From contig OX638316.1 of assembly GCA_951812525.1 (NCBI GenBank), forward strand, positions 4,520,506 to 4,584,505: a stretch of DNA of 64,000 nt, written 5' to 3'. Below are positions 19,089 through 39,668 of the stretch, one piece after another. The notes under the pieces are model-generated. The model saw only the letters and a program-made list of their open reading frames with translations. It made no database searches and had not been told where the DNA came from. Each line of letters starts with the position of its first letter. The first letter of the stretch is position 1. The DNA comes from an uncultured Poribacteria bacterium. GTDB taxonomy: Bacteria; Poribacteria; WGA-4E; WGA-3G. Both the position numbers and the translations under genes were made by a program.

Positions 19089-19224
19089 TATTGGGCTGCT
19101 TCAACGCCAATATCCATAATTACGGTTTATCTATCAGCATTTCAAGACTTCACGTATTCAATCTATTTCTCATGTGTCGGCAGTTTTCCGTCCGGCAAGA
19201 ACATAAAGTTTATGCGAATTATAT

Positions 19225-19366
19225 TCAGGATTTGACTCGGACTTTGAATCTTGCGATGGCACCGCGTTCAACGAGTTCAGCTTTGGCATAGTGTGCGGGC
19301 ATTTGAGAGGATTTCCATCTGCCTGCGACTTGCATATCGACGACGGATGACCGATGGTGTGAGGGG
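19225..19366 (-). pseudogene. C-terminal relic of a tyrosine recombinase
   Basis: On the minus strand an open stretch ending at a TGA (19227-19225) reads VVDMQVAGRWKSSQMPAHYA then KAELVERGAIARFK. This matches the C-terminal end of phage-type integrases (the GHxxxR...AGRWxSxxMPxxY region with the catalytic Tyr). The preceding residues fade out within about 15 codons and no N-terminal part is found. The position, between the sulfatase and the large primase/helicase-like gene, marks a plausible old element border. Confidence 0.7.
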
Positions 19367-19424
19367 ACGACAGACGACTAATTATTGTATTGCTGAATGT
19401 AACGTAAAACGACTTTTGTCGGGT

Positions 19425-21764
19425 TTATCTTTCACAGTCATTGTCTCTTTTCTTTGGCAGTGCATACACACCCCTCCGGACTTTCACTACCTCACCAATA
19501 TCCACGAGACGCTTGAGTTCATTTCCTACAGACTGCGGACTACTCCCAATAGCTGCAGTGATTTCTGATTTTCTTTTTTCGCCATCAGATAGAAGCGCGA
19601 GGATCTGCTCTTGGAAACTGACGCGTGGAATGTTGCCGCCCCTAAGCCTTTGTAGTACATAGTTTGCCATCCTCGCCGAGCATCCCAAAACTCGCTCTAT
19701 CTCCTGTCTGCTGGATTCAGGGGTTAGATTGTCACGTTCTCTTTCAAAACGTTCACGCCTCGTTATTACTTCAGAAAGCTTGTCCAATCCGCCAGCGATC
19801 TCGAAATCTTCCCAGTCAAAAAGGAGGGTCTCAGGTCTATTGGTAATGCCGGGCAATGGCATCCCCGTGAGCAAGGCAACTGTCTTGTTCGACGATCGGT
19901 TTAACCCTGTTCGACCTAAAATCTGTGTAAGGAGGCCAACAACATTCTGTTCATATAGCCCTTGGATTCGTTTGTCTGTATAACAGTAAGGATTAAATTC
20001 TACATCATAACACAGGGGTTCTTCATCGTCTCCAAACAAAATCCGTGCTTGCTTCCACATGAGATGCGGGGGCCAGTGCGGTGCGCCGATGATCCAAATT
20101 ACATCTGCCAGTTCAAACGCACTCCGCCATCCTTCTACATGGATTGCTCTTTTGATATAGCTCAGGGTCCGGACGTTTTCCATTAATGTAAGATCTGCCA
20201 CTTCTGCAGCAGCATCCTGATTACAAATGAGGAGGTGTTGAACATTTGGATCTCTCCCAATTTCTGTGTGGATACCCGAAAAAAAGCGGTGCCCGATTTC
20301 AGAGAGCCCGAAATCATCCCAACTGTTCTCGTAGTTTAAAATATCATGCGAAGAATAAATACCCGTGCGAATCTGAAAAACTCGGTTTCCTGATAGCCCA
20401 GGTTCCAATTCACCGATTTTCACCTTATCTGGCACTGTGTTTTCGCCATTTGGGACTACTGGCACCCAGAACCGCAGCACGCCTTGGTCCCATACCATCG
20501 GCGCATCGGCATCCCGCTGGTAATGCTGAAAAAAATGCTGCAGTTGGTGCCACAATGTCCGATTTGGATTATCTTCGCGCATCTGCTGGATAAGCGTTTC
20601 CGCCTGTACCTCAAATGCCTGCATTGTCATGCGGACACGTCTAACAGGATTCTCATAAAGTTCGCTTTTGCTCTCTAAAGCGTTCAATAAGACTTTCGCA
20701 AAGCTCCGTAAAGCACCCTCTTGCTCGTTGGCACTCCATGCATCTAATACATCTTTCGATATACCGATTTCGGCAAAGAGTAGAGGGACATCTGTTTCGT
20801 CGACGGCATACAGCCATCCCGTTTTTTCGTCGTGTTCGAGAACCTGCAAAGTAGAATCCCTTCGCACCGTACCATCATGTTCCAACTTGGATAACACCGG
20901 ACTTGGACGTTTTATCGCCAACGGACTGAGTTTGCCTTCTCTTATCGCAATCACCTTCTCATCTACAGGTGCTGCCACTGGTGGCACAGTAGGCGTTTCT
21001 TGAACAACGGGTTCCGAATTAGCTCCCGCTGGTGGTGCAGGTTCGTGTAGTGTATCCCGAAGCGCGTCAATCGGAATAAAGAGGATTTCTTTAGTCATGA
21101 TAGGTGGGTCTAACAGATTACCAAGGAGAATCTCATAACGCGTGTCCCAGCGGCTATGTCCTCTTTCTCCAAGGATTTTGAGATATACGTCACGGTGATA
21201 CGGATTATCCGCGGTCGGTATGTGTTTGTGGATATATTCCTCTGCTGGCTCGGTATTCGGATGAAGGTAATCTAAGACTCTGCAAGAAAAGCGGAGTCCA
21301 CCAGAATTTGTCAACGTCAATAGTGGATTCGTGACAGCGTTAACGAGCATCTCAATACAGGCAAGAACAGCATCGGGGGCGGCAGAAATCGCATCATACT
21401 TGAAATCGAGGTCGTGCCATTGCGCACCATCGCGTCCCGAAGGCGTGCCGGTATAAATCTGGATGCCCCACGATGCGAACCATCGTCTGGGTCTCCAGTC
21501 TCGCGTGCCTTGTCGTTTTAGGAAGCGTTCACCGCCAAAATCTTTGGGGGGATGCTCTGCCTCGGGCGCGTGTCCTATTGGCATAAAGGAAATATTTGCC
21601 TGCTCGAGGTCATAGAGTCTCACCGGACACCCTCGCGCGCAACGAACGATGAAGTGATAAGGATAGTCCCTGTGGAGTACGGGTGTTACGACTGTTCTTC
21701 GCTGCCGAAGTAACGCATTGTGCTGTTTGTGACAACGTTGAATGATATTTCGTAAAGCCTTCAT
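19425..21764 (-). CDS. primase/helicase-like protein, short form
   Basis: The product (779 aa) is not assignable to a named family with certainty. Residues 1-240 (opening KALRNIIQRC) include WGIQIYTGTPS, WHDLDFKYDAI and SGGLRFSCRV, a spacing that recalls archaeo-eukaryotic primase/prim-pol cores. After a linker (SPLAIKRPSPVL), the C-terminal half has VIWIIGAPHWPP, YTDKRIQGLYEQNV and ILGRTGLNR, resembling the second half of DinG/XPD-type helicases including motif VI. The last 90 residues are two winged-helix units ending KVRRGVYALP. No Walker A motif was found. It lacks about 300 internal residues present in the paralogue at 50735. The start was set by alignment with that paralogue; a further 40 in-frame codons exist upstream. 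Confidence 0.6.
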   Translation of the reverse strand: MKALRNIIQRCHKQHNALLRQRRTVVTPVLHRDYPYHFIVRCARGCPVRLYDLEQANISFMPIGHAPEAEHPPKDFGGERFLKRQGTRDWRPRRWFASWGIQIYTGTPSGRDGAQWHDLDFKYDAISAAPDAVLACIEMLVNAVTNPLLTLTNSGGLRFSCRVLDYLHPNTEPAEEYIHKHIPTADNPYHRDVYLKILGERGHSRWDTRYEILLGNLLDPPIMTKEILFIPIDALRDTLHEPAPPAGANSEPVVQETPTVPPVAAPVDEKVIAIREGKLSPLAIKRPSPVLSKLEHDGTVRRDSTLQVLEHDEKTGWLYAVDETDVPLLFAEIGISKDVLDAWSANEQEGALRSFAKVLLNALESKSELYENPVRRVRMTMQAFEVQAETLIQQMREDNPNRTLWHQLQHFFQHYQRDADAPMVWDQGVLRFWVPVVPNGENTVPDKVKIGELEPGLSGNRVFQIRTGIYSSHDILNYENSWDDFGLSEIGHRFFSGIHTEIGRDPNVQHLLICNQDAAAEVADLTLMENVRTLSYIKRAIHVEGWRSAFELADVIWIIGAPHWPPHLMWKQARILFGDDEEPLCYDVEFNPYCYTDKRIQGLYEQNVVGLLTQILGRTGLNRSSNKTVALLTGMPLPGITNRPETLLFDWEDFEIAGGLDKLSEVITRRERFERERDNLTPESSRQEIERVLGCSARMANYVLQRLRGGNIPRVSFQEQILALLSDGEKRKSEITAAIGSSPQSVGNELKRLVDIGEVVKVRRGVYALPKKRDNDCER

Positions 21765-22122
21765 AGTGAATAAAGATTTGTCGAAACCGCTGTTTTCGCA
21801 CGAGTTATGTGATTCCCAGGTTGCTTTCCTCTTAGGTCGCAACTCAGATAACAGTAGTATAGCATAATTGACACAAGAAGTCAATGAAATCGAGAACGTA
21901 TCCCGATTTGGTGGGTTTGTAGACGATAGGAACGATGTCCGTTAATATTCCAGATCAACATCGCATGCTTTTTTTTTTGAATTATGTCTTAAAAACTGCT
22001 ATAATAATACATATTAAGAAATAAAAAATAATTTTATAGTATTTTTTTTAACTTCTTGATATGTTTAATATATCCTATCCGAGTTTTTGCTGAAAATGGA
22101 ATAAATATGAAAGGTAAATCCA
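21765..22122. other. AT-rich divergent control region
   Basis: This is the gap between the divergent primase/helicase-like gene and the 90-aa gene. Bases 21965-22085 are strongly AT-rich with long T and A runs. The matching gap before the paralogue (50365-50734) is also AT-rich. Promoters for both directions are expected; no box is certain and no iterons were seen. Confidence 0.4.
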
Positions 22123-22395
22123 ATGCCAAGCGGTATTATTATTACAAATAAAGAATATACATTCCAAGAAGCTGCGCGTCTCCTCGCGCGGGCACTCGCA
22201 TCAATCGTTGACATAAATAATGAGACAACCTTCTCAATGGCAGACATATTATGTATGCTCCGTAGTGTGAATGAGCGTGTTTCAGGTGAGTTTGAAATTC
22301 AACGAACTCATTCTCATCACTATCAGGTTGTTTACAGACCTAAAGAGGAGGTGGTTGAGAGTTTCAAGGAAAGATGGGAAGGTTTCATTGAATGA
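22123..22395 (+). CDS. small protein of duplicated cassette, copy A
   Basis: A 90-aa soluble protein of unknown function. It has a helical N-terminal half (YTFQEAARLLARALASI) and a GEFEIQRTHSHHYQVVY segment near residue 55. It is nearly identical in layout to the 90-aa protein at 63302 and shares the same domain with the first 90 residues of the next gene (GEFEVRQTPSRYIHIVY). Its stop overlaps the next start by 4 bases (ATGA), so the two are translationally coupled. GAAAGG lies before the ATG. Confidence 0.75.
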   Translation: MPSGIIITNKEYTFQEAARLLARALASIVDINNETTFSMADILCMLRSVNERVSGEFEIQRTHSHHYQVVYRPKEEVVESFKERWEGFIE

Positions 22396-23021
22396 AAAGC
22401 AAGATCTTTATAGAAGCTGGTAAGCAGTTGACCTTGACAGAATACATCTCTATTGCTTCAAGGACAATGTCGCTAATCGGTGAGGCTGCAAAAGACATCA
22501 AGGAGATAGACGCAACTTTCTCAGTAAACGACCTCGTCGTGCTACTCAACAAAATATGTGTGCACATGGCAGGTGAGTTTGAAGTTCGCCAAACCCCTTC
22601 TCGCTATATTCATATTGTTTATGCACCAGATGTTCTTGATGAAGTAGGGTTTGACGAAGGATTCATGGTCAGTAACTTTGTAGACGCGCAGGATCGGGGT
22701 CAGAACCCTCTCTGGATTAATGAAAAAGTTGTTTTTGCCTTCATAGATCGAAAACTCTATGGAGTCGCCACTATGATCTATTTTTATCTCGGCTACCTAA
22801 TGACGCAGGATGAAACGTTTGGATTATCACATAATATCTCTTTTGAAAAGATTCTGGAGGGTTGCAGTCAGCTTCCAAAAGATTTCCCTGTGAAGCATCC
22901 GACGACCCTTATGCGTGCGCTTGCAGATCTTCAGGATGCTGGGCTCATTAGGTGGAATGCAAAATCACACACTTTTGAGTTACTTCACATAACGCCGTAT
23001 GACCCCAATAAAAAGGTTTAA
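22392..23021 (+). CDS. winged-helix-like protein of duplicated cassette, copy A
   Basis: The product (209 aa) begins with the same domain as the upstream 90-aa protein. It then adds about 110 residues (VVFAFIDRKLYGVATMIYFYLGYL ... TTLMRALADLQDAGLIRW). That extension has the helix pattern and the turn-to-wing GLIRW of a winged-helix DNA-binding fold, as in plasmid or phage replication initiators. A second, truncated copy is at 63571 and an internally deleted relic is at 32563. No family name can be given; a DNA-binding regulator or replication protein is the best inference. Confidence 0.7.
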   Translation: MKSKIFIEAGKQLTLTEYISIASRTMSLIGEAAKDIKEIDATFSVNDLVVLLNKICVHMAGEFEVRQTPSRYIHIVYAPDVLDEVGFDEGFMVSNFVDAQDRGQNPLWINEKVVFAFIDRKLYGVATMIYFYLGYLMTQDETFGLSHNISFEKILEGCSQLPKDFPVKHPTTLMRALADLQDAGLIRWNAKSHTFELLHITPYDPNKKV

Positions 23022-23034
23022 CAAAGTATCTATC

Positions 23035-23244
23035 ATGCAACAACTGGCATCCTTCATTCAATTACCATCGGCACCAATGCAGGTGATTTACAACACAATC
23101 CAGCAGGTTGGAAGATCAAACATACCGTTCTTCATTACTGGCGAAACCGGTGTCGGTAAGGAAGGCGTCGCAAGATACATTCATGAAATGGGTATTGTAA
23201 ATATTTTAAAGTGTAGCACCGAGTTGTTGAGAGTCCACAGATAA
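23035..23244 (+). pseudogene. truncated sigma-54 activator ATPase
   Basis: The reading frame from ATG 23035 gives MQQLASFIQL, then a Walker A motif in FFITGETGVGKEGVARYIHE. This is the opening of an AAA+ sigma-54 interaction domain as in NtrC-type activators. After about 53 residues the similarity stops, the frame closes at 23244, and no Walker B or DNA-binding domain follows. It sits 13 bases after the cassette and may be what is left of a third cassette gene. Confidence 0.7.
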
Positions 23245-23257
23245 CTGTCGAGAAACC
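23214..23257. repeat. 44-bp repeat shared with 30400-30443
   Basis: TAGCACCGAGTTGTTGAGAG continuing through CCACAGATAACTGTCGAG is found at 30400-30443 with about one difference. Both copies read through as ESPQITVE in one frame, so it may be the shared remnant of one decayed coding sequence. Confidence 0.6.
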
Positions 23258-23298
23258 TGCTGAGTGCTTGGTTTCCGCGTGTGTTTCTGTAAAAGCAA

Positions 23299-23562
23299 AT
23301 GAGATCCAAAGACATGTACGAAGATCCTAAAACAGTCGCAGCGTTAGGTATCGCTTATCTTGAATCGGCGATTCTTGAAGTCATGAGGGATCAACCCCTA
23401 CGCCCCATCGAGATTTCCCAACGTCTCGGGATTACCAGTTATCCGTTTGACGATGGGAAAAATGGGTTTGCGATGATTCACGGATTGCTACGAAAACTCG
23501 CCAGTGAAGGACGCGTCGAACGGTATCACAACGGAGTGCGCTGGAAACGTACCGACGGCTGA
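23299..23562 (+). CDS. small winged-helix protein
   Basis: An 87-aa basic protein with helices at ESAILEVMRD, PIEISQRLGI and MIHGLLRKLASEGRVERY, ending in a wing with GVRWKR. This is a typical winged-helix DNA-binding layout, as in small regulators or HTH parts of larger enzymes. The first ATG was used; ATG 23314 would remove 5 residues. It follows the truncated activator and precedes relic DNA, so it could be a leftover, but the frame is intact. Confidence 0.55.
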   Translation: MRSKDMYEDPKTVAALGIAYLESAILEVMRDQPLRPIEISQRLGITSYPFDDGKNGFAMIHGLLRKLASEGRVERYHNGVRWKRTDG

Positions 23563-23599
23563 TGACTGGCTGACAGTGGATCGTTAATGAACGCCTTAT

Positions 23600-23629
23600 G
23601 GGAACAGATTTGATACCCTATCTGTTCCC
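23600..23629. repeat. 30-bp hairpin repeat, copy 1
   Basis: The left arm GGGAACAGAT, loop TTGATACCCT and right arm ATCTGTTCCC form a perfect 10-bp stem. An almost identical copy with the same loop is at 32320-32349, and the bases CTTAT also precede both. Conserved stem and loop in unrelated positions suggest a repeat family rather than a terminator. Confidence 0.7.
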
Positions 23630-23652
23630 GCCTCGCACTTAAGGAGAACCTA

Positions 23653-23746
23653 ATGAAACATTCGCATACATTTTGATTTTGATAAGCCTATTTTACATGC
23701 TTCTGTCACAGACGGATGCCAGCATTTCGGTGTGATCGCTATTTTT
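23653..23746 (+). pseudogene. internally deleted relic of the 121-aa membrane protein
   Basis: After AAGGAG an ATG begins MKHSHTF, then a frameshift, then LILISLFYMLLSQTDASIS, like the signal peptide of the protein at 32966 (ending TQASIS). The next bases jump straight to TTCGGTGTGATCGCTATTTTT, which matches the end of that gene (FGALVIF) and the relic at 30680. The whole middle has been lost. Confidence 0.6.
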
Positions 23747-24091
23747 AATCCGCTAAATCCCCGTGATCAGGGGGACTTTAATGGGAAACTCCTATATGGA
23801 ACTATCAAGAATGAAATAATTACTGCAGATGGATTGTTCGATTCTTATGAAGCAAAGTATCCTGCCTTCCCCAACCGTTCATATCTCGCATTTGCGGTGC
23901 CGTATCAGTTACCTGACGCACAATTTAAACTTTACTTGGCGTTGGATACCAGCGAAACGAGGGGTGAAACGAGAATCAACGACGATTTGGCACTCGGTGC
24001 TTTCGCTTTGAATTTTTCGCGACAGCGCGCTTTGTCACGCGTCGATGGCCACTTGTCTTGTTGCATCTCTGTTTTGCCTTGTGTTTTGTAA
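23732..24091 (+). CDS. hypothetical open frame, doubtful
   Basis: A 119-codon frame that begins inside relic DNA. The middle (SYLAFAVPYQLPDAQFKLYLALDTSE) looks protein-like, while the last 25 residues do not. No ribosome site is seen. It may be the 3' part of a decayed gene. No family recognised. Confidence 0.25.
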   Translation: MIAIFNPLNPRDQGDFNGKLLYGTIKNEIITADGLFDSYEAKYPAFPNRSYLAFAVPYQLPDAQFKLYLALDTSETRGETRINDDLALGAFALNFSRQRALSRVDGHLSCCISVLPCVL

Positions 24092-24199
24092 TTCCTATAA
24101 ACTCATGAGATATTCCTAGTCCGTGATATTTCTCTACTTATTACGAAAGGAGTTCTCTCGAGAAAATCACGAACCTTATATCAAACTCAGGTTAATAAT

Positions 24200-24841
24200 A
24201 TGAAAAAATTACTCTTTCTACTTTTGGTTTCAATAGGTGTCTGCCTTTTTTCCGTAACACAGAGTTCTGCACAGCAGAACACAAACCCATTAGACGATCT
24301 ATTCGATAACCGGTGGCGCGGTTTGTTCTTAGGTGGAGCGGTCAGATACGGAATAACTCAATCAGGATTGTCTGTTTTGGCAGATCGGTTTAATGAAGAC
24401 GATAAGTTTGACAATTCAAATAGCCGTAGTATGTCGGGAGGCATACAGTGGCGGCTCGGATACGCGGTTTCAGAAGATATGGGATTCTATATCACATCGC
24501 CGTTCCTATCGGTGCAACCAGCATTCGGTGTGCTATTATTTAGCCAAAAATATTCAAACACTTACTACACCGTGCAGCTCGGATACACAAGAATGGCTGC
24601 TTCTTCAAGAATTACAGCCGCAAATTTCGACCAATATATTCTCACAGCAAGTAACACGCCGGCTGACGCTTGGACCTTTAACTTAGGGATCGGTAACGAA
24701 TTTCGACGACGCTACGCGTTTGAACTCACAGCCGGGTTCAGTCGAATAACGATTCCTAATGCGTATTGGGATTCGGGTTTTCGCAATTTGCATCTAAACG
24801 AACTATCCCTCTTTGCTTCGTTTAATTATTGGCTCTACTAA
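24200..24841 (+). CDS. secreted outer-membrane-like protein
   Basis: The product (213 aa) has a clear signal peptide (MKKLLFLLLVSIGVCLFSVT, cleaved near SSAQQ). Alternating polar/hydrophobic strands with aromatic ends follow (GIQWRLGYAVSEDMGFYI, YYTVQLGYTRM, LSLFASFNYWLY), ending in an aromatic residue. This pattern is that of a small beta-barrel outer-membrane protein. No family could be named. It precedes the MORN-repeat lipoprotein by 29 bp on the same strand, so the two are probably co-expressed. Confidence 0.65.
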   Translation: MKKLLFLLLVSIGVCLFSVTQSSAQQNTNPLDDLFDNRWRGLFLGGAVRYGITQSGLSVLADRFNEDDKFDNSNSRSMSGGIQWRLGYAVSEDMGFYITSPFLSVQPAFGVLLFSQKYSNTYYTVQLGYTRMAASSRITAANFDQYILTASNTPADAWTFNLGIGNEFRRRYAFELTAGFSRITIPNAYWDSGFRNLHLNELSLFASFNYWLY

Positions 24842-24870
24842 AAACATTTGATTTACACATACGGAGGTAT

Positions 24871-25845
24871 ATGAAACAGATGAAATTGAGGTTACGAAAC
24901 TTTATACTACCGCTTACGCTACTCTACGTATTGTGCTTGTGTTTCTTAGGATGTTCTGCTGATGAGGAAGCGAGCCCATCGGACACGTTGCTCCCTACTG
25001 GCGCAGATCTGGAACAATTAATTGCTCAAGCATTAGACGCGGATAAGTTGCAGACTCGCGGTCCATCGGGCGAAAAACTTTTTTACCAACCGAATCAGGA
25101 AACACCTTATACAGGATGGGTTAAAGACTACCACGACAGTGAAGATGAAGATCTCTGGTCACTCGTCCAGGTGCGCAACGGTAAACTTCATGGTCCAGCG
25201 ACATATTGGTATGAAAACGGGCAGAAAGATGAAGAAGGCACATATACAGACGGTCAACGCGATGGTGCCTGGACATTCTGGTATAGAAACGGGCAGAAAG
25301 ATGAAGAAGGCACATACAAAGACGATGAACGCAATGGTGCCTGGACATTCTGGTATGAAAACGGTCAGAAGGCAAGAGAAGGCACATACAAAGACGATGA
25401 ACGCAATGGTGCCTGGACATTCTGGTATGAAAACGGTCAGAAGGCAGGAGAAGGCACATACAAAGACGATGAACGCAATGGTGCCTGGACATTCTGGCAT
25501 GATAATGGGCAGAAAAGTAGAGAGGGCGCATACAAAGACGATGAACGAAATGGTGCTTGGACATTCTGGTATGAAGAAAACGGACAGAAAATGGCAGAAG
25601 GCACATACAAAGACGGTCAACGCGATGGTGCCTGGACATTCTGGCATGATAATGGGCAGAAAATGGCAGAAGGCACATACAAAGACGGTCAACGCGATGG
25701 TGCCTGGACATTCTGGCATGATAATGGGCAGAAGCGCGCAGAGGGCGCATACAAAGACGGTAGACGGGTTGGTACGTGGAGTGTCTGGACGGAAAATGGT
25801 CAGAGGGATTGGTGGATACAGGACAGCCTGCCAGACCTGCCATGA
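24871..25845 (+). CDS. lipoprotein with MORN_2/YwqK-type repeats
   Basis: The 324-aa protein has a lipoprotein signal (LCLCFLGCS, Cys near residue 27). From about residue 103 it carries nine consecutive 24-residue repeats built on GAWTFWYENGQK..EGTYKD, the MORN_2 pattern that is found in YwqK-like proteins. Lipidation would place it at the cell surface or periplasm. The start was put at ATG 24871 because GGAGGT precedes it and the signal peptide begins there. The repeats are nearly identical in DNA (72-bp unit), so copy number may vary between strains. Confidence 0.8.
   Translation: MKQMKLRLRNFILPLTLLYVLCLCFLGCSADEEASPSDTLLPTGADLEQLIAQALDADKLQTRGPSGEKLFYQPNQETPYTGWVKDYHDSEDEDLWSLVQVRNGKLHGPATYWYENGQKDEEGTYTDGQRDGAWTFWYRNGQKDEEGTYKDDERNGAWTFWYENGQKAREGTYKDDERNGAWTFWYENGQKAGEGTYKDDERNGAWTFWHDNGQKSREGAYKDDERNGAWTFWYEENGQKMAEGTYKDGQRDGAWTFWHDNGQKMAEGTYKDGQRDGAWTFWHDNGQKRAEGAYKDGRRVGTWSVWTENGQRDWWIQDSLPDLP
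25177..25809 (+). repeat. 72-bp tandem coding repeat
   Basis: Nine units of a 72-base period encode the MORN_2 repeats. The central units differ by only a few bases, and one contains an extra codon (YEENGQK). The outermost units are diverged. Confidence 0.85.
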
Positions 25846-26191
25846 GGCGGAGCGTTGTGGTTTCGCGGTTTCCCTCTGATGGATTGGGGGCTGATATTAG
25901 CTAGGTCCGGCTCAAAAGACACGCGTCTATGTCGCACAGCTTTCCATAAACGACATCAACAACACGCGCTGATCGGAGGCTAGGGCTTGTCTACGGTTTA
26001 TCCCCTTCACAAGTCCCTCAATAGCAGCCGTGCTATGTGTTCTGGCGGGCAGGCAATGAACTAGACGCACGGCACGGAGCAGCAGTTGCAAGCGTCAATC
26101 AGGATGCTCTTTTTCCATACTGATGATTAAATATGATTAATGTGATAATCCTTAGTAACCTGAAAATTGAATCCAAAAAGAGGAGTTTGCT
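25846..26191. other. intergenic, nothing recognised
   Basis: There is no plausible gene, hairpin or repeat in this gap apart from the GAGGAG ribosome site at its end. Confidence 0.5.
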
Positions 26192-28696
26192 ATGAAAACA
26201 ACCTTAACGTTACTTATTTTTTTTACCATCTTTTCCATAAACACTTTTGCTCAAAATCCTCCGGACGCTGTCCTTGAAGGGCATACGGATATAATTGATC
26301 GCATAAAATTCAGCTCGGACGGGCGCACTCTCGCAACTGGTAGTAGAGATGGTACTATCCGCTTGTGGGATATAAAAGCTAGCAGACACTTACATACACT
26401 CGAAGGACATGAGAGCAGTATTAGGAGCATAGAATTCAGTCCAGATGGAAACACCTTCGCAAGTAGCGGTAGCAAAACCATCATCTTGTGGGATGTAGAT
26501 ACCGGCAGACACTTACGCACTCTTGAAGGACATACGGATAGTGTCAATGTCGTAGCATTTGGTCTAGAAGGTCGCACTCTCGCAAGTACCAGTAATGACG
26601 ACACTATCCGCTTGTGGAGTGTAGATACCGGTAGACATTTACATACGCTCATACCTGATACTCCTGTCAGGCGCATAGCGATCAGTCCGGATGGGCGTAT
26701 CCTTGTAGGTTGGGGTTGGAACAGATTCCGTGGGGGCGGGATACATTTGTGGAATACAGAAACAGGCAAACACCTAAACTACATCGTCCCTCGTGAAATT
26801 AATAGTGTAGTGTTCAGTCCAGATGGGAAAATTCTCGCAAGCGCAAGCGCTGGTGAAACCATCATCTTGTCGGATATAGAAACCGGCAGACACTTACACA
26901 CGCTCAAAGGGCATTTGAACGAAATCAGTGGTATGATGTTCAGTCCGGATGGTCGCACTCTCGCAAGTATCAGTAGAGACGACACTACCCGCTTGTGGGA
27001 TGTAGATACCGGCAGACACTTACATACGCTCGAACATACACTCGAAGGAGGTTTCATCCCGAGCAGTAACATAATATTCAGTCCGGATGGAAACACCCTC
27101 ATAAGTAAGAGTGGGATTGCTCCCTTCCACCTGTGGGATGTAGAAATGGGAGAACTTCGAGGGACCCTCAAAGGGTATCCAAGGGGTGTTCTCAGTCCAG
27201 ATGGAAGTACTTTCGTAAATTATTTTGGAGGAGATATTCGACTGTGGAAGTTACCCGATACCCATGTTGGGATCACACCCGATATTGTGGTGTCTCCTAT
27301 TATTGGTGAACAACTCTCTATCAACGTGAGTATCTTTGGGGGCGAAAACATTGCGGCGTATGAGGTTAACGTGTTGTATGATGCCACTGCCCTTCGCTAC
27401 GTTTCAAGCATCAACGGCGATTATCTGCCCTCTGGTGCGTTTTTTGTACCCCCTGTTGTATCAAAGTATGTAGGACATAATAATAACAATGCAGTAAAAC
27501 TTGGCGCAACTTCTCTTACCGGGGTGAGTAATGGGGATGGTACGCTTGCGACTGTAACGTTTGAGGTGGTCAATGTCAAAGAATCCGTTATTAATACATT
27601 TGATGTAATCCTTACGGACAGCACAGGTGCAGTTTTACCACACTGGATTAATTACCAGACAAAAGTTACTGAACCGTCTCAGTTAACCTCTCCTGCGGTT
27701 GTCAACCTGACCCCCGCCTCGGTGATGTCATCGGCGATCGGTGAAAAAATGGATTTCAAGATTAATATCACGGAAGGTCAAAGCATAACGGACTATCAAA
27801 TGACCTTGCAATACGATAGAAAAGCACTTCAATTTTCCCTTGTAACTTGGAGTGATTATTTTAACGGCTATTATTCCCAGTATAGTTTTGATGCGAGTGG
27901 ATTGACGCTCCATACCACTTCTCGTGGTGGAGCTGTCAATGGTGCCGGTACACTTGCGACTGTAACGTTTGAAGTCATCGCTGTCAAGCCCTCAACCATC
28001 AGCATTTCTGGACACCTCGTTGCTCCGAACGGGGTTCGTTATATTCCTACCTTTGAAAATGCTAAGGTGATTCTGCCGACTCTCGGAGATGTCAACAGAG
28101 ATGGAACTGTCAATATCTTGGATTTAGTGTTGGTAGGCTCAAGTTTCGGGAGACGGGTACGAAATGATGGTAATCCAGCGGATGTGAATGAGGATGGGCT
28201 TGTCAACGTCGTGGACTTAGTTATAGTTGCTGGGGCGATTGGGGGCACGGCTGCACCTTCTTTACATCCACAGGTGCTGGCCGCGTTCACTACCTCTGAC
28301 GTACAACAGTGGCTCTCTCAAGCACAGCATGCGGAATTGAATGATGCAATCTCGCAAAGGGGTATCCGCTTCTTAGAACAACTCCTTGATGCATTGATTC
28401 CCAAAGAAACGGCACTGCTGGCAAACTATCCGAACCCGTTTAATCCAGAGACATGGATCCCATATCAACTTGCCAAAGATGCAGATGTGACACTGACCAT
28501 CTACGCCGTGAACGGACATGTTGTCCGGCGATTGGCACTTGGACATCAACCGGCGGGTATGTATCAGAACCGAAGCCGTGCAGCGTATTGGGATGGCAGA
28601 AACGCATTTGGTGAGACTGTGGCAAGTGGTGCGTATTTCTATACCCTTACCGCAGGTGATTTCACCGCTACACGAAAGATGATTATTGTGAAATAG
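26192..28696 (+). CDS. secreted WD40-cohesin-cohesin-dockerin protein
   Basis: The 834-aa protein has a signal peptide (ends NTFAQ). About eight WD40 blades follow (residues 25-355). Two cohesin-like domains come next (about 362-490 and 502-628; each has the GTLATVTFEV strand), then a dockerin with two calcium loops (VNRDGTVNILDL and VNEDGLVNVVDL, about 630-690). A short helical linker and a C-terminal FlgD/sorting-like module (NYPNPFNPETWIPYQL to the end) complete it. Having both cohesin and dockerin on one chain suggests assembly with itself or with the other dockerin proteins of this window. GAGGAG precedes the ATG. Export probably depends on the tail. Confidence 0.88.
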   Translation: MKTTLTLLIFFTIFSINTFAQNPPDAVLEGHTDIIDRIKFSSDGRTLATGSRDGTIRLWDIKASRHLHTLEGHESSIRSIEFSPDGNTFASSGSKTIILWDVDTGRHLRTLEGHTDSVNVVAFGLEGRTLASTSNDDTIRLWSVDTGRHLHTLIPDTPVRRIAISPDGRILVGWGWNRFRGGGIHLWNTETGKHLNYIVPREINSVVFSPDGKILASASAGETIILSDIETGRHLHTLKGHLNEISGMMFSPDGRTLASISRDDTTRLWDVDTGRHLHTLEHTLEGGFIPSSNIIFSPDGNTLISKSGIAPFHLWDVEMGELRGTLKGYPRGVLSPDGSTFVNYFGGDIRLWKLPDTHVGITPDIVVSPIIGEQLSINVSIFGGENIAAYEVNVLYDATALRYVSSINGDYLPSGAFFVPPVVSKYVGHNNNNAVKLGATSLTGVSNGDGTLATVTFEVVNVKESVINTFDVILTDSTGAVLPHWINYQTKVTEPSQLTSPAVVNLTPASVMSSAIGEKMDFKINITEGQSITDYQMTLQYDRKALQFSLVTWSDYFNGYYSQYSFDASGLTLHTTSRGGAVNGAGTLATVTFEVIAVKPSTISISGHLVAPNGVRYIPTFENAKVILPTLGDVNRDGTVNILDLVLVGSSFGRRVRNDGNPADVNEDGLVNVVDLVIVAGAIGGTAAPSLHPQVLAAFTTSDVQQWLSQAQHAELNDAISQRGIRFLEQLLDALIPKETALLANYPNPFNPETWIPYQLAKDADVTLTIYAVNGHVVRRLALGHQPAGMYQNRSRAAYWDGRNAFGETVASGAYFYTLTAGDFTATRKMIIVK

Positions 28697-28766
28697 GTAT
28701 AGTGTATAGGTAGAAATGGGGTCAATTGATGCCATAATTCATAATTTATTGAAAAGGAGATACAAA

Positions 28767-29735
28767 TTGAAACGTATACTACTTTTTATCGCATGTGTTA
28801 GCACAATCCTTCTCACAGGATGCAGCGAGACAGAAGAAACAACAATGTTAGGATCAGTGGATAGTAGCGCACTCAACACGGTCGGAAAAATGAAAAAACC
28901 TGAGCATATAGACGCTCCAGCGGCACCACAGATGCCAGGCGTAGGGACACCAAGCGTCACAGGAGTCAGCTACTACAGCGATGCGAGACTCACCAAACCG
29001 CTTAGCGGCACAATAAAGCAAGGGAAAACTATCTACACCAAGGTAGTGTTCTCAGAACCCATGAAGCACACCGCATCGGATGAGAAAAACGCCCGACCGA
29101 TACTCAGTTTCCTGATAGACGGTAAGGCAACTCGATACCGCATCAAGCCACACAGGACTTCAGGTAAGAACTTCCAAAGTGGCGATTGCAAACCTTTAGG
29201 GAACGGCACTGACGATTACATCTGCAAGTACACCGTACAGGCAGATGATGCAGGTATGTTCAGCTTAAAAGTCGGTAAGTTCAGCATGGACTCAAACGGC
29301 AATACGCTTGCTAACACTTATACACATGAGACAACGCTGCAACTCGGACAGCAGACAGCACCGACTGTTGACTACTACAAGATAGTTGATGCCGGATTGG
29401 AAAGAGCCCATAAAGAGTTGGTCAAGTTCCGAGTGAAATACGACACACCCCTAGAATTCCTTGAAGCCGAGGCAGAATTTCTTGGTGCAGATATCTTTGA
29501 AAAAGATTACAGGCATTGGGTGATAGAGCAAGAATTCGACATAACATGGAACTGGGAACTTGATTCTAAAACCGCAGGAATCTATCGTAGAGCCAAGGGA
29601 CTGAATGAGGATGCCGCGGTATATCCTGAAATGACTACAAGGGAGTACATAAAACTCCGCCTTGAGTTTCCAGAAGAAACTGATGAAGAAATCCTGGAAC
29701 GTTACAAAACCCTGGCGGAAGAGGGTGTAATTTAG
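28767..29735 (+). CDS. lipoprotein with Ig-like N-terminal part
   Basis: The 322-aa protein has a lipoprotein signal (STILLTGCS). The first half is rich in short strands (VTGVSYYSDARLTKPLSGTI, YTKVVFSEPMKH), resembling bacterial Ig-like surface domains. The second half is charged and helical (EFLEAEAEFLGADIFEKDY). TTG 28767 was chosen as the start because AAAGGAG lies upstream and the signal peptide begins there. Function unknown. It follows the cohesin protein by 70 bp. Confidence 0.7.
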   Translation: MKRILLFIACVSTILLTGCSETEETTMLGSVDSSALNTVGKMKKPEHIDAPAAPQMPGVGTPSVTGVSYYSDARLTKPLSGTIKQGKTIYTKVVFSEPMKHTASDEKNARPILSFLIDGKATRYRIKPHRTSGKNFQSGDCKPLGNGTDDYICKYTVQADDAGMFSLKVGKFSMDSNGNTLANTYTHETTLQLGQQTAPTVDYYKIVDAGLERAHKELVKFRVKYDTPLEFLEAEAEFLGADIFEKDYRHWVIEQEFDITWNWELDSKTAGIYRRAKGLNEDAAVYPEMTTREYIKLRLEFPEETDEEILERYKTLAEEGVI

Positions 29736-29865
29736 AGCCTCCACAATTAATAGTAAAGAGACTTCTCCAAATCCATTGACTGGCATGATGGTTTTACAAG
29801 ACTTGATTACACTGTCATTTCCTGATTTTGTAATGTATGTTGCCGAGAAGATTAAAGTATCACTC

Positions 29866-30297
29866 CATGCGGCGGATGTCAACGGTGATGGTGTGGTGAA
29901 TATCGTGGATTTGACGTTGGTTGCGGGAGCGATCAGTAATGCCGCAGCCGCGCCATCAGTCTGGGGTCACGATTTGGAAATCGCTCCTACAAGAAAGCAA
30001 GTAGAGCAGTGGCTGCGTGAGGCACAGCAAGTCAATCTGACAGATGCGAGGTTTCAGCGTGGGATTCTGATATTAGAGCAACTTCTCGCCTCCTTGACTC
30101 CAAAAGAGACAGCACTCTTGCCGAACTATCCGAATCTGTTCAACCCAGAGACCTGGATCCTGTATCAGTTGTCAGAGCCCGTCGATGTGACGCTGAGATC
30201 TATTGTATAGACGGGAGAGTCGTGCGACATGGTCTACTTTTATACACTCACCGCAGGAGAATTCACTGCTACTCGGAAAATGTTGATAACGAAGTAA
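29866..30297 (+). pseudogene. relic of dockerin plus C-terminal module
   Basis: The frame reads AADVNGDGVVNIVDLTLVAG, then the linker and the tail motif (NYPNLFNPETWILYQL). It stops early after SEPVDVTLRSIV at a TAG (30208-30210). Past a deletion the end of the module (YFYTLTAGEFTATRKMLITK) resumes in another frame and closes at 30297. DNA identity with 41690-42206 is very high in the shared part. All upstream domains are missing. Confidence 0.85.
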
Positions 30298-30399
30298 TTT
30301 GGAAAATGCTCATACTAAACGAGGTTCCTAGCGTTTTTACCCGATCACTGTCTCGAATCTATGCATTCTATCGCGACTACCCGTCTCTGAATCGTGTGA

Positions 30400-30443
30400 T
30401 AGCACCGAGTTATTGAGAGTCCACAGATAACTGTCGAGGAACT
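30400..30443. repeat. 44-bp repeat shared with 23214-23257
   Basis: This is the second copy of the TAGCACCGAGTT...CAGATAACTGTCGAG stretch. In one frame it continues as ESPQITVEELAGNMQQTP. Confidence 0.6.
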
Positions 30444-30560
30444 CGCCGGGAACATGCAACAAACACCGATGACATCCTTGAGTAGATCTTTGTTAATATC
30501 CGAGCGAGGTGAGAAAAAACAATGATCATGTCTCGAACATGGAGGATTAAAGATTGACTT

Positions 30561-30730
30561 ATTGAGGCTGTTCGGCAGATTTATGGGGAAACCGCCAGAG
30601 TAGGTCTTTTTCTTATTCAAGAATATCAGCGAATGTCAAAGAAGTTCCAATCCTATTATACGTTTTGGAGGTCGCTGACAGTTTTCGGTGTGATCGCTAT
30701 TTTTTATCTGTTTAGATCCGCAAGCCAATA
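30561..30730 (+). pseudogene. 3' relic of the 121-aa membrane protein gene
   Basis: The DNA from TTTATGGGGAAACCGCCAGAG to the bases after GATCCGCAAGCC aligns base by base with 33180-33335, with several frame-breaking changes. The 5' half of the gene is absent. Confidence 0.75.
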
Positions 30731-30741
30731 AGGAAAATCCT

Positions 30742-31064
30742 ATGAAAGGTCATACATTGTTTTTTATTTTCGTTTCAGCAATTTTAGTGTTATTCGGTTG
30801 TGGTGTAGAAGTGCCAAGCGAATCCGGTGAAGAAGTGGTCTCGGACAAATGGATCGACCCGAAAGATATTGGAAAAGAATACCGAGTTAAAATTGAAGAT
30901 ATTAAGGCTAGTGACACTGTTTTCTTTCTGATGGAGAAAGACATACGGTAAGAAATGGGAATCTTATTGAATCCAAAGACGATGGCACTGTTGTTCTTCA
31001 TATTCTTGAGTCAATACCTGATCCAAATAGACCTAATGTTTTTTCTGACTGTATAGTCTTTTGA
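30742..31064 (+). pseudogene. small lipoprotein gene broken by a frameshift
   Basis: From ATG 30742 the frame gives a lipoprotein signal (SAILVLFGCG) and 69 residues ending at TAA 30949-30951. Shifting frame near 30930 restores sense (HTVRNGNLIESKDDGTVVLH ... PNVFSDCIVF) to a TGA at 31062. The original product was probably about 105 aa. The signal peptide closely resembles that of the minus-strand relic at 48342. Confidence 0.65.
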
Positions 31065-31219
31065 CTCTCACCAGTTGTTCGGATACACCGTATACGGGTT
31101 CAATGTTCAGTCCTACGGATGTAGACAGATATATCGTTAAGTCTAATGAATATTCAAAGAAAAGGAGCAGACATTTCACCCTTACTTTTTGTAGGGACCT
31201 ATGTCCGAAAAGTAATCCT

Positions 31220-31720
31220 ATGAAACTTCGAAGGTCAGAGCCACTTGTGCGGGGTTGGCAGAAAAAAGGCGTTGAAATCCGATTCTTTACGATGCTATTG
31301 TGCGGGGTGGTGGCGTTTTTCGGGTGTGCCGATGGGAGAAAAAAGACGACGACTGCTGAAATCTCAGCACGCTTCAAAAACTATGCGAAGTTAAAACAGA
31401 ACGATCCAGTGGGTGCCCGCGGTGAACTCTATGCTGCGGCATATCTACTCCACAAGGGACACCCGAAGTCTAAACTTTGGGCAGAAAAAGTCTACGAGAT
31501 GGATAGCACGGGGAAGGTGAGTTTCTCGGAGTTGCTTGCCTATGAGGTACTGCTATTCGAAATTGCCACCGACAACGGTGCGCCCAAAGAAGTCTTAAAG
31601 AAACACCAAGAGGTCATCAAAGCGACACGACAGCAGATTGAAACTCTCAAAGCCGAAGGTAAAGACCCCGAAGCAGTCTGGACCCAAGCGTATTCATTTG
31701 ATTTTTCTCCAGATCTCTAA
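31220..31720 (+). CDS. putative lipoprotein, helical
   Basis: A 166-aa protein with a long basic N-terminus and a hydrophobic stretch ending MLLCGVVAFFGCADG, a plausible lipobox. The rest is helical and charged (ISARFKNYAKLKQNDPVGAR, KEVLKKHQEVIKATRQQ). ATG 31220 was taken as start; ATG 31292 is possible and gives a shorter signal peptide. The open frame extends further upstream to 31061 without a convincing start. No family recognised. Confidence 0.5.
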   Translation: MKLRRSEPLVRGWQKKGVEIRFFTMLLCGVVAFFGCADGRKKTTTAEISARFKNYAKLKQNDPVGARGELYAAAYLLHKGHPKSKLWAEKVYEMDSTGKVSFSELLAYEVLLFEIATDNGAPKEVLKKHQEVIKATRQQIETLKAEGKDPEAVWTQAYSFDFSPDL

Positions 31721-31775
31721 CCTTGATGACGATTAATGTTGAGAAGCCGATGAACCAGAATTCAAGAGAATCGTA

Positions 31776-32006
31776 ATGGAATTTAAACGAATGATAATAC
31801 AACGCAAAGCTGAGCTAGGGTCAATCATATTCCGGAGGCGATTTCTGAGGTTAATCGTTTTTATAGCGACTTTGATTCTTGCGTTTGCTAAGACATCGGC
31901 TTGTCGCAATACGGAAGATCCTGAGGAACCTTTATCGATCAAATCGAGCAAGCGCGATTCAATTACTATCACCAGTCGTGGGCATGGATGTGCACAATCT
32001 GAGTGA
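31776..32006 (+). CDS. possible small membrane protein, doubtful
   Basis: A 76-codon frame with one hydrophobic stretch (LRLIVFIATLILAFAKTSAC) preceded by AAGAGA. The C-terminal part shows no protein-like character, and the region downstream (to 32300) looks like decayed DNA, so this may be a broken gene. Confidence 0.25.
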   Translation: MEFKRMIIQRKAELGSIIFRRRFLRLIVFIATLILAFAKTSACRNTEDPEEPLSIKSSKRDSITITSRGHGCAQSE

Positions 32007-32319
32007 TCCGCTCAAGGTTGATGGTTATGTTGTTGATAACTTGGAGTGTCTGTTGAGAAACTCGCTGATCAGCACGCTGTAAACACGGACGAATCTATGT
32101 TTCGATCATGACGAATAGACCCGCACGCTGATTTACGGGCGCGATTTTGCCTTCCGTTCTTTTCTCCAAGTGGTCTGTCGGGAATGTGCATTTAACATTG
32201 TTAGCAGCAATGACTCGCTTTGCAGGTTGTGCGGGCTCCAAAAACAACCTGCATTTACAACTAACTGCAGGTGTAGGATTCATCTCTGAATAATGGTTGC
32301 TGATTGCCAATCATCTTAT
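32007..32319. other. decayed DNA, nothing assignable
   Basis: Short open stretches in several frames (for example VHNLSDPLKVDGYVVDNLEC) suggest former coding sequence, but no family could be recognised. Confidence 0.3.
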
Positions 32320-32349
32320 GGGAACAGATTTGATACCCTGTCTGTTCCC
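32320..32349. repeat. 30-bp hairpin repeat, copy 2
   Basis: GGGAACAGAT, the same TTGATACCCT loop, and GTCTGTTCCC differ from copy 1 at 23600 by one base, which leaves a G-T pair at the loop end. Confidence 0.7.
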
Positions 32350-32356
32350 ACCTTAT

Positions 32357-32388
32357 GGGGGAGTTTTCCCTTTGCCCGGTACTCCCCC
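32357..32388. repeat. second hairpin beside the repeat
   Basis: GGGGGAGT and ACTCCCCC form a perfect 8-bp stem over a 16-base loop, 7 bases after the hairpin repeat. There is no T-tract. Confidence 0.5.
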
Positions 32389-32535
32389 GTCCATCTTCCG
32401 GAAGGTGTGGACAGCTGCTTATTTTATATAGCTCGAACAGAAACCATATAACGAGATCATGCGAAATACACACCGACGCACAGCAGGAAGTTACAGGAAA
32501 ACGTCTTTCAGATACTCGGACAACCAAGTGCACCT

Positions 32536-32712
32536 AATGGGAGAGCTTTATTGAATGAAAAACCAACCCTTTATAAAAGTGGGTCCCCAATTAACGTTCG
32601 ACCCTTATGCGTGCTCTGGCAGATCTCCAGGATTCGGGGCTTGTCAAACGTAAAAACACGCACCTTTGAGTTGCTTCATATAACACCGTATGATCCCAAC
32701 GAAAAGGTGTGA
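32536..32712 (+). pseudogene. internally deleted relic of the 90/209-aa cassette
   Basis: Bases 32540-32565 (GGGAGAGCTTTATTGAATGA) match the end of the 90-aa gene and its ATGA overlap. Then MKNQPFIKVGPQLTF matches the start of the 209-aa protein. The sequence then jumps to a match with its last 40 codons (LMRALADLQDSG ... FELLHITPYDPNEKV) ending at TGA 32710. About 450 bp are missing and the frame is lost. Confidence 0.85.
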
Positions 32713-32815
32713 CTGTGGATAATCGAGGTCGCTATTTCAAACCCGGTATCACGATTTCTAAAATGATACACATCAATAGAAGCAATCCACGTGGGACAAC
32801 AGAAACAATCTTAGT

Positions 32816-32899
32816 GAATCCGTTGCAAGTGGGGTGTATTTCTACACACTCACAGCAGGAGAATTCGCGGCTACACGGAAAATGTTGATACGCAAGTAA
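32816..32899 (+). pseudogene. orphan end of the C-terminal module
   Basis: ESVASGVYFYTLTAGEFAAT followed by RKMLIRK and a stop is the last 27 residues of the sorting-like tail, with no gene body before it. Confidence 0.85.
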
Positions 32900-32965
32900 T
32901 TGTGGGGATACGCCTCGCAACGTTAGAGCTACTGACGATAACAACTCAAAAAAGGAGAAAACCCT

Positions 32966-33331
32966 ATGAAAATACTCGCTTGTCTATTGATTTTGGCAAC
33001 CTTGCTCACCATACTACCCAAACCCACCCAAGCCAGTATCTCTGCCAGAGCGATCCAAGACGCTAGAAATGATGCCGAAAGAGAGATAAACAAAGAACTC
33101 TGGTTTATGGTTGGCTGTTGTCTTAGCGGTCTTGGCTACACGATTGCTTTTCTGACAACACCAGAGTTACCTGTCCAAAGATTTATGGGTCAACCGCCAG
33201 AATACGTCTTTTTCTATATCGGAGAATATGAGCGAAAGGCGAAGAGACTCCGAGCCTATTACACGTTTTGGGGATCGCTGGCAGGTTTCGGAGCACTCGT
33301 TATTTTTTCTCTGTTTAGAGCCGCAAGTTGA
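32966..33331 (+). CDS. small membrane protein, 121 aa
   Basis: It has a signal peptide (MKILACLLILATLLTI, cleavage near TQASIS) and two hydrophobic helices (ELWFMVGCCLSGLGYTIAFL and FWGSLAGFGALVIFSLF) separated by a charged loop. No family recognised. AAAGGAG precedes the ATG. Two decayed copies are at 23653 and 30561, so this is the only intact member of a local family. Confidence 0.65.
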   Translation: MKILACLLILATLLTILPKPTQASISARAIQDARNDAEREINKELWFMVGCCLSGLGYTIAFLTTPELPVQRFMGQPPEYVFFYIGEYERKAKRLRAYYTFWGSLAGFGALVIFSLFRAAS

Positions 33332-33373
33332 TACGGAAAATGTTAATAAGAAAATACAAAGAGAAATTTGTTC

Positions 33374-33690
33374 ATGAGAAACACGTTTTCCCTGATTCTA
33401 ACTGTGCTTTTGGTGATATTTACTTTTCACCAAAAACACTTGTCCAAAATTCACCGCAGTGGCACCTACCGGAAGGGGTGAAAGCCGGTCTTGGTAAAGG
33501 CAGAATTAATGAAATACAGCATTCCCCAGATGGAACACGTATGGCAGTTGCGAGCGGTACAGGTATTTGGCTTTACGACGCATGGACAGGTGAAGAACGC
33601 GATCTACTTATTGGACATACGTCTGTGGTCAGTAGCATATCGTATAGTCCAGATGGTAGGACGCTGGCATGCGGGGTCCGGTTCTCATAA
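33374..33690 (+). pseudogene. head of a WD40 gene, frameshifted and truncated
   Basis: MRNTFSLILTVLLVIFTFHQ from ATG 33374 is the signal peptide of the WD40 proteins at 37668 and 39669. After a frameshift near 33440 the next part (WHLPEGVKAGLGKGRINE, then two blades) continues in another frame. It ends at GRTLACG where unrelated sequence begins. Directly upstream, RKMLIRK in frame from 33334 looks like another tail fragment. Confidence 0.8.
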
Positions 33691-33741
33691 AGCGACACTT
33701 ACCGGAGATAACAATACGGTTGATATCGTTGTTGTTTCTAT

Positions 33742-33867
33742 GCTGGAGATGGATTTGCTGAGGGTGAACTCGCCACCCTTAATACCATTTATGATCGCGC
33801 AAAACGGATGGGACTTGAAACTTGCCCGGTTGAGATTGCCCCGCTGCTTAAAGGAGAAATTAGATGA
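33742..33867 (+). pseudogene. short coding fragment before lipoprotein gene
   Basis: The frame AGDGFAEGELATLNTIYDRA continues KRMGLETCPVEIAPLLKGEI and stops at 33865, overlapping the next start. It looks like the C-terminus of a real protein that I cannot name; no start is attached. Confidence 0.4.
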
Positions 33868-34583
33868 AACTCTTCTTACAATTTTGTACGGCGGCGTTAG
33901 CCTGCATAATGACAGCTGCTTGCGCCGTCCATGTAGAACCTGAATCGCCACGCGCGATTATCACTTTTGACTACTCACCTCCAGAAACTATGCCCGGGTC
34001 AGCCAATCTTACATTCGCTGTTGTTGGCGCAGAGATAGTTGGAGGTAAACGCGGAACACCTATTCCGCTTTTTAAAACCTTTGCAAGCAATATGACGAAA
34101 GACTTTGGAGAGATACTAACTGCCCGTGGCTTTAGTGTCAAAGGTCCTTTTCAAGACTACGACATTATGACTTACACCGATAAAGAGGGAGCCGATCTTA
34201 TCCTCACAGCTGAAGTCGAATTTAGTTCAGATACAACGCAAATCAGACCTTCAAGTATTGGAAGGCTAAATGGATCAATAATAGTGACTTGTCATGTCAA
34301 CCTTGTTGCTTATGAGAGCCTAACGAGGAATCGTCTATGGACAAAGAGTGTAGCGATTACACCGATAACGGTGGAACTCATCTCCAGAAAGACGTATCCA
34401 AATGGTGCGAGTTTGGCGACCCTGCTGGTAAATGAGAACAAATTCCACAATGACGTTGGTCGCGCGCTTGAGGGCCAATATACCGAAGTTTTGAACCGGA
34501 TTTACGGTTACATTGAACCGGAGTCCATGACCATTGTAGGTGAGGCTGCGAAAAAACTGAGGAATCAGAAAATCGCACAATAG
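33864..34583 (+). CDS. lipoprotein, possibly HpaA-like, first of tandem pair
   Basis: A 239-aa protein with a lipoprotein signal (IMTAACAV). The body (ANLTFAVVGAEI, FASNMTKDFGEILTARGFSV, GADLILTAEVEF, and FHNDVGRALEGQYTEVLNRI near the end) has the layout of the HpaA family of surface lipoproteins: an early strand, a helix before GF.V, a strand set, and a C-terminal helix. That assignment is tentative. The next gene encodes a related protein of 291 aa. AAAGGAG precedes the ATG. Confidence 0.6.
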   Translation: MKLFLQFCTAALACIMTAACAVHVEPESPRAIITFDYSPPETMPGSANLTFAVVGAEIVGGKRGTPIPLFKTFASNMTKDFGEILTARGFSVKGPFQDYDIMTYTDKEGADLILTAEVEFSSDTTQIRPSSIGRLNGSIIVTCHVNLVAYESLTRNRLWTKSVAITPITVELISRKTYPNGASLATLLVNENKFHNDVGRALEGQYTEVLNRIYGYIEPESMTIVGEAAKKLRNQKIAQ

Positions 34584-34688
34584 TCTCTGCAAACCGTTCA
34601 TTACGTCGCTAATTTTGGGGAAGATCTTGAAAAATCCAACTTTAGCGAATAGTTTGATTCAATTGAATTATAGAAGGAGATTTTTTAA

Positions 34689-35564: not shown

Positions 35565-35601
35565 TTAAGCCCAATGCTTTGTTCCGTAACATTAACCTGT
35601 A

Positions 35602-35631
35602 TAGATGCAGGTTAAACCTGCATCTATTTTT
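35602..35631 (+). terminator. rho-independent terminator
   Basis: An 11-bp perfect stem TAGATGCAGGT / ACCTGCATCTA over a 3-base loop is followed by TTTTTC. It lies 37 bases after the second lipoprotein gene. Confidence 0.9.
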
Positions 35632-35707
35632 CTGGTGCCCCTTTCAAAGTGTATTACAAAAGCACTCTCACAGATTTCCACCCTCCTACTTCAATGGGTG
35701 GTTTCAG

Positions 35708-36049
35708 GTGAGGGTTCAAGCGAAACCTGCCCCTGCGGATCAAGATCTAATTGTCCGCGTCCGCCTCTTGTTCACTGAGTTGAATATCAGTGAGGAACAG
35801 GTGAGAGACTTGAAAGATGACGCTTTTAACGAGATTCTCTGGTTCCGAATTCCCAAACTCGAAAAAGCTTCTGAAGCGGTTTGGCTCCGAGCTAAAATTA
35901 CAACTGTACTTCAGGTCGTGAAGCTGCCGCGTAGGCATAAGTTTGAACATGATACTAAAGCAGTTGATGGAAGCACAATTCCTGAGTGGTGGGTCTCCTC
36001 ACCATATCAGGTAGCCAATCCTTCGGTGCTGATCCATCATTACGAATAG
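35708..36049 (+). CDS. hypothetical protein, possibly 5'-truncated
   Basis: About 113 codons from GTG 35708. The body (LLFTELNISEEQVRDLKDDA, WLRAKITTVLQVVKLP, TIPEWWVSSPYQVANP) looks like real protein, but no family was recognised. The frame is open back to 35579, but a terminator lies in that stretch, which argues for a start after it. No good ribosome site, so it may be a gene remnant. Confidence 0.35.
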   Translation: MRVQAKPAPADQDLIVRVRLLFTELNISEEQVRDLKDDAFNEILWFRIPKLEKASEAVWLRAKITTVLQVVKLPRRHKFEHDTKAVDGSTIPEWWVSSPYQVANPSVLIHHYE

Positions 36050-36084
36050 TGCGTAAGTTAAGAACAAAAAGGAGAATTAAGACT

Positions 36085-36779: not shown

Positions 36780-36834
36780 TCTATTTGTTAACCGTATGAT
36801 AATCATGTTCATTAACTAAATTTAAGGAGATTCA

Positions 36835-39652: not shown

Positions 39653-39668
39653 TAGGAGATCCTTTTTT

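Follow-up and report, generated by a model that had tools for sequence, protein, structure and literature searches.

A short gene of a Candidatus Poribacteria protein family related to mobile-element primase-helicases, and the likely loss of its helicase motor by deletion

Mobile-element primase-helicases combine a primase-like domain, a Zn-type or middle domain, a P-loop ATPase and a winged helix (PMC5862659). The same architecture occurs in an unannotated protein family of Candidatus Poribacteria, whose host is sponge-associated, with the differences that the SF2 Fe-S-type motor is here decayed or excised and that no known AEP family matches the N-terminal domain (N-domain). In one relative (L118), the N-terminal slot before the same helicase is filled by a BT4734-like primase (PF08800), a type that the N-domain of the family does not match (probability 0.2-0.3). 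Full-length relatives share with the XPD/DinG/YoaA Fe-S SF2 helicases the order of Walker A, four Cys, motif II, S[AS]T and GR motif, whereas the copy described here is devoid of Walker A, the Cys cluster and motif III, and the family adds the N-domain and the winged helices. CasDinG of type IV-A CRISPR systems, also a DinG relative with an altered accessory Fe-S module, retained Walker A and lost the Cys ligands (PMC10450177) and represents the mirror case: in most copies of the present family it is Walker A that has gone and the Cys that persist, and a clade of short forms has neither.

The short gene lies in a window of 64,000 nucleotides (the whole stretch of DNA that was analysed), together with a long-form paralogue. 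The main features are the following:

19425..21764, minus strand: short-form gene, 779 aa (P0001), with ATG at 21764, stop codon at 19425-19427 and a family-conserved start
21039..21764, minus strand: N-domain, residues 1-242, the most constrained part, with prim-pol-like motifs (alignments, dN/dS 0.12)
19785..20567, minus strand: RecA2-like region, approximately residues 400-660, collinear with sister proteins that match DinG/YoaA
19449..19787, minus strand: C-terminal pair of winged-helix-like domains, approximately residues 660-772 (AbiEi_4 match, dN/dS 0.14)
50735..54145, plus strand: long-form paralogue, 1136 aa, with a decayed Walker A
19089..64000 within the window, no strand assigned: inserted segment of ~57.8 kb that runs past the window end (three relatives lose synteny at 19088)

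The ATG at 21764 is favoured as the start of the short gene by the family alignment, which conserves M..LK.IIQRCH there, over an upstream TTG start that would give 819 aa. The motifs GIQIYTG, WHDLDF, SGGLRF and GRTGLNR are all found in the 779-aa protein, and a search of it for the pattern [AG]xxxxGK[ST] returned none, as expected from the original prediction, which had described a primase/helicase-like protein devoid of a P-loop. Searches of the protein against Pfam, NCBIfam, PHROGs and PADLOC gave a C-terminal winged helix (AbiEi_4) as the sole match, and PDB sequence searches returned weak matches only, to WhiB, HTH and one helicase-IV. For both window proteins, AlphaFold models made with five alignment rows had a pLDDT of 39 and a pTM of 0.25-0.28, too low for a usable fold.

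The 5.06-Mb genome of the window encodes 12 near-complete copies of the family, three of them short forms, and one winged-helix fragment. The long paralogue of the window is 62% identical to the short protein in the N-terminal domain and 49% identical in the C-terminal part. Of 85 genomes in the phylum, 50 have a family match, almost all within one taxonomic family; the 103 copies studied here sample those of the phylum and are not the full set. Since several genomes of the genus lack the family although they are near-complete (G017, 96% complete, as well as G033 and G035), the role of the family is accessory.

The short gene is the first gene in the inserted segment, which is flanked by a sulfatase gene before and a PhyH-like gene after, is missing between the same flanking genes in three genomes (G028, G010 and G018) and is followed by a return of synteny at G000:C1:4597381. 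An integrase relic adjoining the gene, as originally predicted, was not confirmed: a tyrosine-recombinase-like ORF (L194:8688-9497), read by eye, lies near the far end of the segment, ~50 kb from the short gene. The divergent cassette predicted as a neighbour is present at 22123-23244 and comprises a 90-aa ORF, a 209-aa ORF and a truncated sigma-54 activator domain (E 1.8e-8). The 209-aa protein followed by the truncated activator occurs twice in the segment (22123-23244 and L194:3577-4585), and longer versions of the activator are found near other family copies (e.g., L012:6421-7533). Between 26192 and 62375 of the window, many WD40-type proteins share a sorting-signal-like C-terminal domain (PNPFNPETWIPYQL...TRKM). 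TnpB-like genes were seen at up to ~300 bp from family copies at five loci (L009:5211-6317, L019, L035, L090 and L105), and the genome of the window contains only about five TnpB matches; nearby TnpB as a source of mobility for the family was set aside because the enrichment was weak.

P-loop-bearing long copies carry, in order, a Walker A motif (AETGAGK[ST]), the four-Cys cluster, the DE of motif II, S[AS]T as motif III and GR.GLNR. The four Cys are putative Fe-S or Zn ligands. Alignment of the short and long forms located what remains of these elements in the two window copies:

51965..51988, plus strand: Walker A remnant AETDAKGT of the long copy (AETGAGKS in intact paralogues)
52193..52285, plus strand: intact four-Cys cluster of the long copy (C486, C507, C510 and C516)
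20999..21000, minus strand: deletion junction between residues 255 and 256, long-form residues 256-337 gone
20846..20847, minus strand: deletion junction between residues 306 and 307 (with that between 297 and 298), long-form residues 382-399 and 409-552 gone
20796..20801, minus strand: residual Asp-Glu of SF2 motif II (VDE, residues 322-323), just past the junction
20567..20568, minus strand: deletion junction between residues 399 and 400, long-form residues 646-740 gone
20441..20442, minus strand: deletion junction between residues 441 and 442, long-form residues 783-799 (motif III, S[AS]T) gone
19896..19916, minus strand: motif-VI-like GRTGLNR, residues 617-623 (QAIGRARLVR in sister proteins)

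The loss of long-form residues 382-399 and 409-552 takes out Walker A and the entire four-Cys segment, and the identical gap is present in all six members of the short clade. The DE and GR motifs are kept in the short copy, and motif III is deleted across the clade. Because some long copies carry a standard Walker A at the place where the short clade is deleted, the absence of a P-loop in the short gene is best read as a secondary loss by deletion. The short clade has a single origin (6 rows, SH-aLRT 97, matching deletion junctions), and on this alignment both Walker A and the Cys cluster are shown to have gone from it in one ancestral step. The short copy cannot be a Walker-A-driven helicase.

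The ancestry of the missing motor is visible in the full-length relatives, the helicase half of which matched a DinG/YoaA profile (E. coli DinG and YoaA and 20 DinG-type proteins of the phylum) from the P-loop to motif VI (HHalign probability 91, E 9.1e-7, 529 columns; probability 0.2 for the reversed-sequence control). The RecA2 half alone gave a non-significant result against the same profile (probability ~1), so it is the relatives retaining RecA1 that carry the XPD/DinG assignment; the DinG/XPD-like half predicted for the short protein was thus recovered through its relatives and not in its own remnant. The host genome of the window has one separate canonical DinG-type gene. The family (A1) aligned end-to-end with a bridge set of proteins (L154, L125, L155 and L118) over 943 columns (probability 100, E 1.6e-54). 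In the 993-aa protein L118, a BT4734-like primase domain (Pfam E 6.6e-24) stands in front of a helicase whose Walker A reads GSAAGTGKT and which shares the Cys pattern and has LDEVN; in the other three, this helicase is accompanied by the complete or partial N-domain of the window family, and L155 adjoins a Rep3 initiator gene and L154 a Dam-type methylase. The L118 layout (BT4734-type domain or motifs, Walker A, four Cys, LDEVN) recurs in L173, from an IMG/VR viral contig with phage-like neighbours that include an ORF resembling a tape-measure protein; L173 is the single bridge-set relative in viral contigs, where no member of the family itself was found. Phage and plasmid records searched with L154 gave no match, and with L118 the primase domain alone was matched. 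A closer sister group (L161, L185, L186, L187, L189 and L190) has MSATL and a GKN P-loop, with QAIGR.RLV as motif VI in three members; GKN consistently replaces GK[ST] in Walker A of L161-type proteins, the remaining motifs of which look intact. The nearest relatives with an intact motor are primase-helicase-like proteins. These comparisons show that the family shares with phage and mobile-element replication-type proteins, in the same order, the N-domain, an XPD/DinG-like SF2 helicase with four Cys and C-terminal HTH or winged-helix domains. The evolutionary placement of the short protein, as a retained member without a motor in a Poribacteria family derived from mobile-element-type primase-helicases, is well supported.

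Decay of the motor extends beyond the short clade. In a quick ML tree computed from the N-domain and RecA2 columns of 101 copies, GK[STN] is retained in 29 copies and requires 9 changes, at least 7 of them forced by well-supported branches; judged from these alignments, Walker A has decayed repeatedly in the family. The four Cys behave as all-or-none, being complete in 84 of the 101 copies and missing as a segment in 17, with ~10 changes on the tree, 9 of them forced. Of the 17 copies without the Cys segment, 16 also have a dead P-loop (Fisher p 0.02, uncorrected for relatedness). In P-loop-less copies the residues of motifs II and VI drift and the Cys do not.

Selection on these proteins was estimated by dN/dS (Nei-Gojobori). 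The short clade has a value of 0.19, which is approximate because mean dS is 1.1, near saturation, with 0.12 for the N-domain, 0.23 for RecA2 and 0.14 for the winged helices, so that the N-domain and the winged helices are its most tightly constrained parts. Values were 0.18 for the P-loop-less clade at the argG locus, 0.20 for the clade of the long window copy and 0.21-0.28 for P-loop-bearing groups; the motor-less clades (0.18-0.24) are therefore similar to P-loop-bearing copies and are under purifying selection. With the number of copies in the genome and the homologues across the phylum, the short-clade estimate confirms that the 779-aa ORF is a real gene and not a chance reading frame. 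The dN/dS of the motor-less copies makes it unlikely that they are pseudogenes, and this reading of the short gene was rejected. That the gene is a functionless, decaying remnant of a mobile element is highly improbable: the accessory distribution and the internal stops in some family copies would fit it, but the short ORF is intact, the motor-less clades are constrained, and in seven genomes a P-loop-less clade has stayed next to unchanged neighbours (argininosuccinate synthase). In this clade (L113, L162-L165, L167 and L168), adjoined by argininosuccinate synthase and MoxR-like ATPase genes as read by eye, the decayed P-loop is conserved as STEKK. As selection still preserves its remaining domains, the short protein must be useful without a motor.

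A primase role of the N-terminus was also considered, prim-pol-like motif spacing having been noted there originally. Two of the motifs concerned map as follows:

21402..21419, minus strand: motif-I-like WHDLDF, residues 116-121 (alignment)
21288..21305, minus strand: motif-II-like SGGLRF, residues 154-159, with Arg for the usual AEP His (alignment)

At the level of motifs the N-terminus does resemble prim-pol proteins. The first Asp of motif I is kept in 101 of the 102 copies that have the column; the second position is occupied by D, E, N, H, Q, T, V, Y or A, and its acid is lost in 35 of 103 copies (one without the region), including 4 of the 6 short-clade members. The window copy retains both acids at this place, where the AEP pattern is hhhDhD/E. 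The motif-II Arg is invariant (102 of 102 copies having the column), a departure from the AEP pattern sxH for which there is a precedent in the DR0530-like AEP family, where Arg or Lys is reported in place of the His (PMC5862659). Motif III (hD/E) has two candidates, YLEI, in which most copies have Glu and the window copy Lys, and WDxRY, in which the Asp is conserved. Support ends at the motifs: a Pfam search of the N-domain gave nothing, and comparison with Prim-Pol (PF09250) and BT4734-like primase profiles gave no match (probability 0.2-0.5), a weak negative, since two true primase families also miss each other in this test (probability 4.7). A primase motif pattern found in 56 of 103 family members and in 0 of 5,150 shuffles was rejected as evidence because it was drawn from the family itself and its spacing misfits a PF09250 protein (L217). 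An active primase-polymerase that has dispensed with its helicase would agree with the two acids and the invariant Arg of the window copy, and is nevertheless very unlikely given the unmatched profiles, the Lys in YLEI and the acid lost in most of the short clade; the last of these makes primase activity of the short protein doubtful. Together with the missing Walker A, this leaves the wider suggestion of an unusual replication, repair or defence enzyme unproven.

The two originally predicted winged helices were recovered at the C-terminus as AbiEi_4 at residues 733-770 (29.1 bits, cut-off 25), preceded by a weak CRP/ArsR-like HTH below the cut-off. The likeness to AbiEi antitoxins consists in this AbiEi_4 score, but only ~40 residues are common to both. 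None of four ORFs scanned to one side of the gene is an AbiEii partner, and the adjacent gene in the opposite direction reads as a sulfatase by eye. Judging from the winged-helix predictions, the short protein probably binds DNA through its C-terminal domains. The explanation preferred here, held with about even confidence, is that the short gene encodes a motor-less derivative of a mobile-element-type primase-helicase which acts as an ATP-independent DNA-binding protein. Its winged helices would recognize DNA, perhaps a site related to the replication origin of the ancestral element, the N-domain would bind a nucleotide or a primer-like end and the RecA2 remnant would serve as a scaffold. Such a protein would act by occupying its DNA, as a regulator or a blocker, and not by unwinding.

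In another reading, short and dead forms would be subunits of a heteromer with a P-loop-bearing paralogue. Same-strand arrays of four genes in matching order, with two short copies, one altered-P-loop copy and one P-loop-bearing copy, are found in the genome of the window (L009, G000) and in a second one (L102, G028). XPD/DinG helicases, however, generally act as monomers, and the short copy of the window stands alone. Two draft genomes (G008 and G012) have one family copy apiece, P-loop-less in both, which argues that dead copies can do without an intact paralogue, and the heteromer is accordingly considered improbable.

Domesticated interference is a further reading. Motor-less copies would then be decoys that stop related incoming elements from replicating, by binding their origins or replication complexes in a dominant-negative defence. 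Many diversified copies per genome, with dead motors and conserved DNA-binding-type domains, would suit this role, and relatives that keep the motor (L154, L155, L118 and L161-like) are found in mobile-element-like settings within this bacterial family and genus. Against it, the PADLOC matches are to the AbiEi-type winged helix only, no link to known defence genes emerged and the family is missing from several genomes; such interference is rather unlikely. The broader proposal, in which the lineage has its own arsenal of domesticated replication proteins that lack a motor and block the replication of elements carrying motor-bearing relatives, is improbable.

Within one family, P-loop-bearing, eroded and excised helicase motors form a natural series of proteins that are still under selection. 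This makes three questions testable: which activity an Fe-S-type helicase scaffold has in the absence of ATP, why the four Cys persist or disappear together and how hosts take over the replication proteins of mobile elements.
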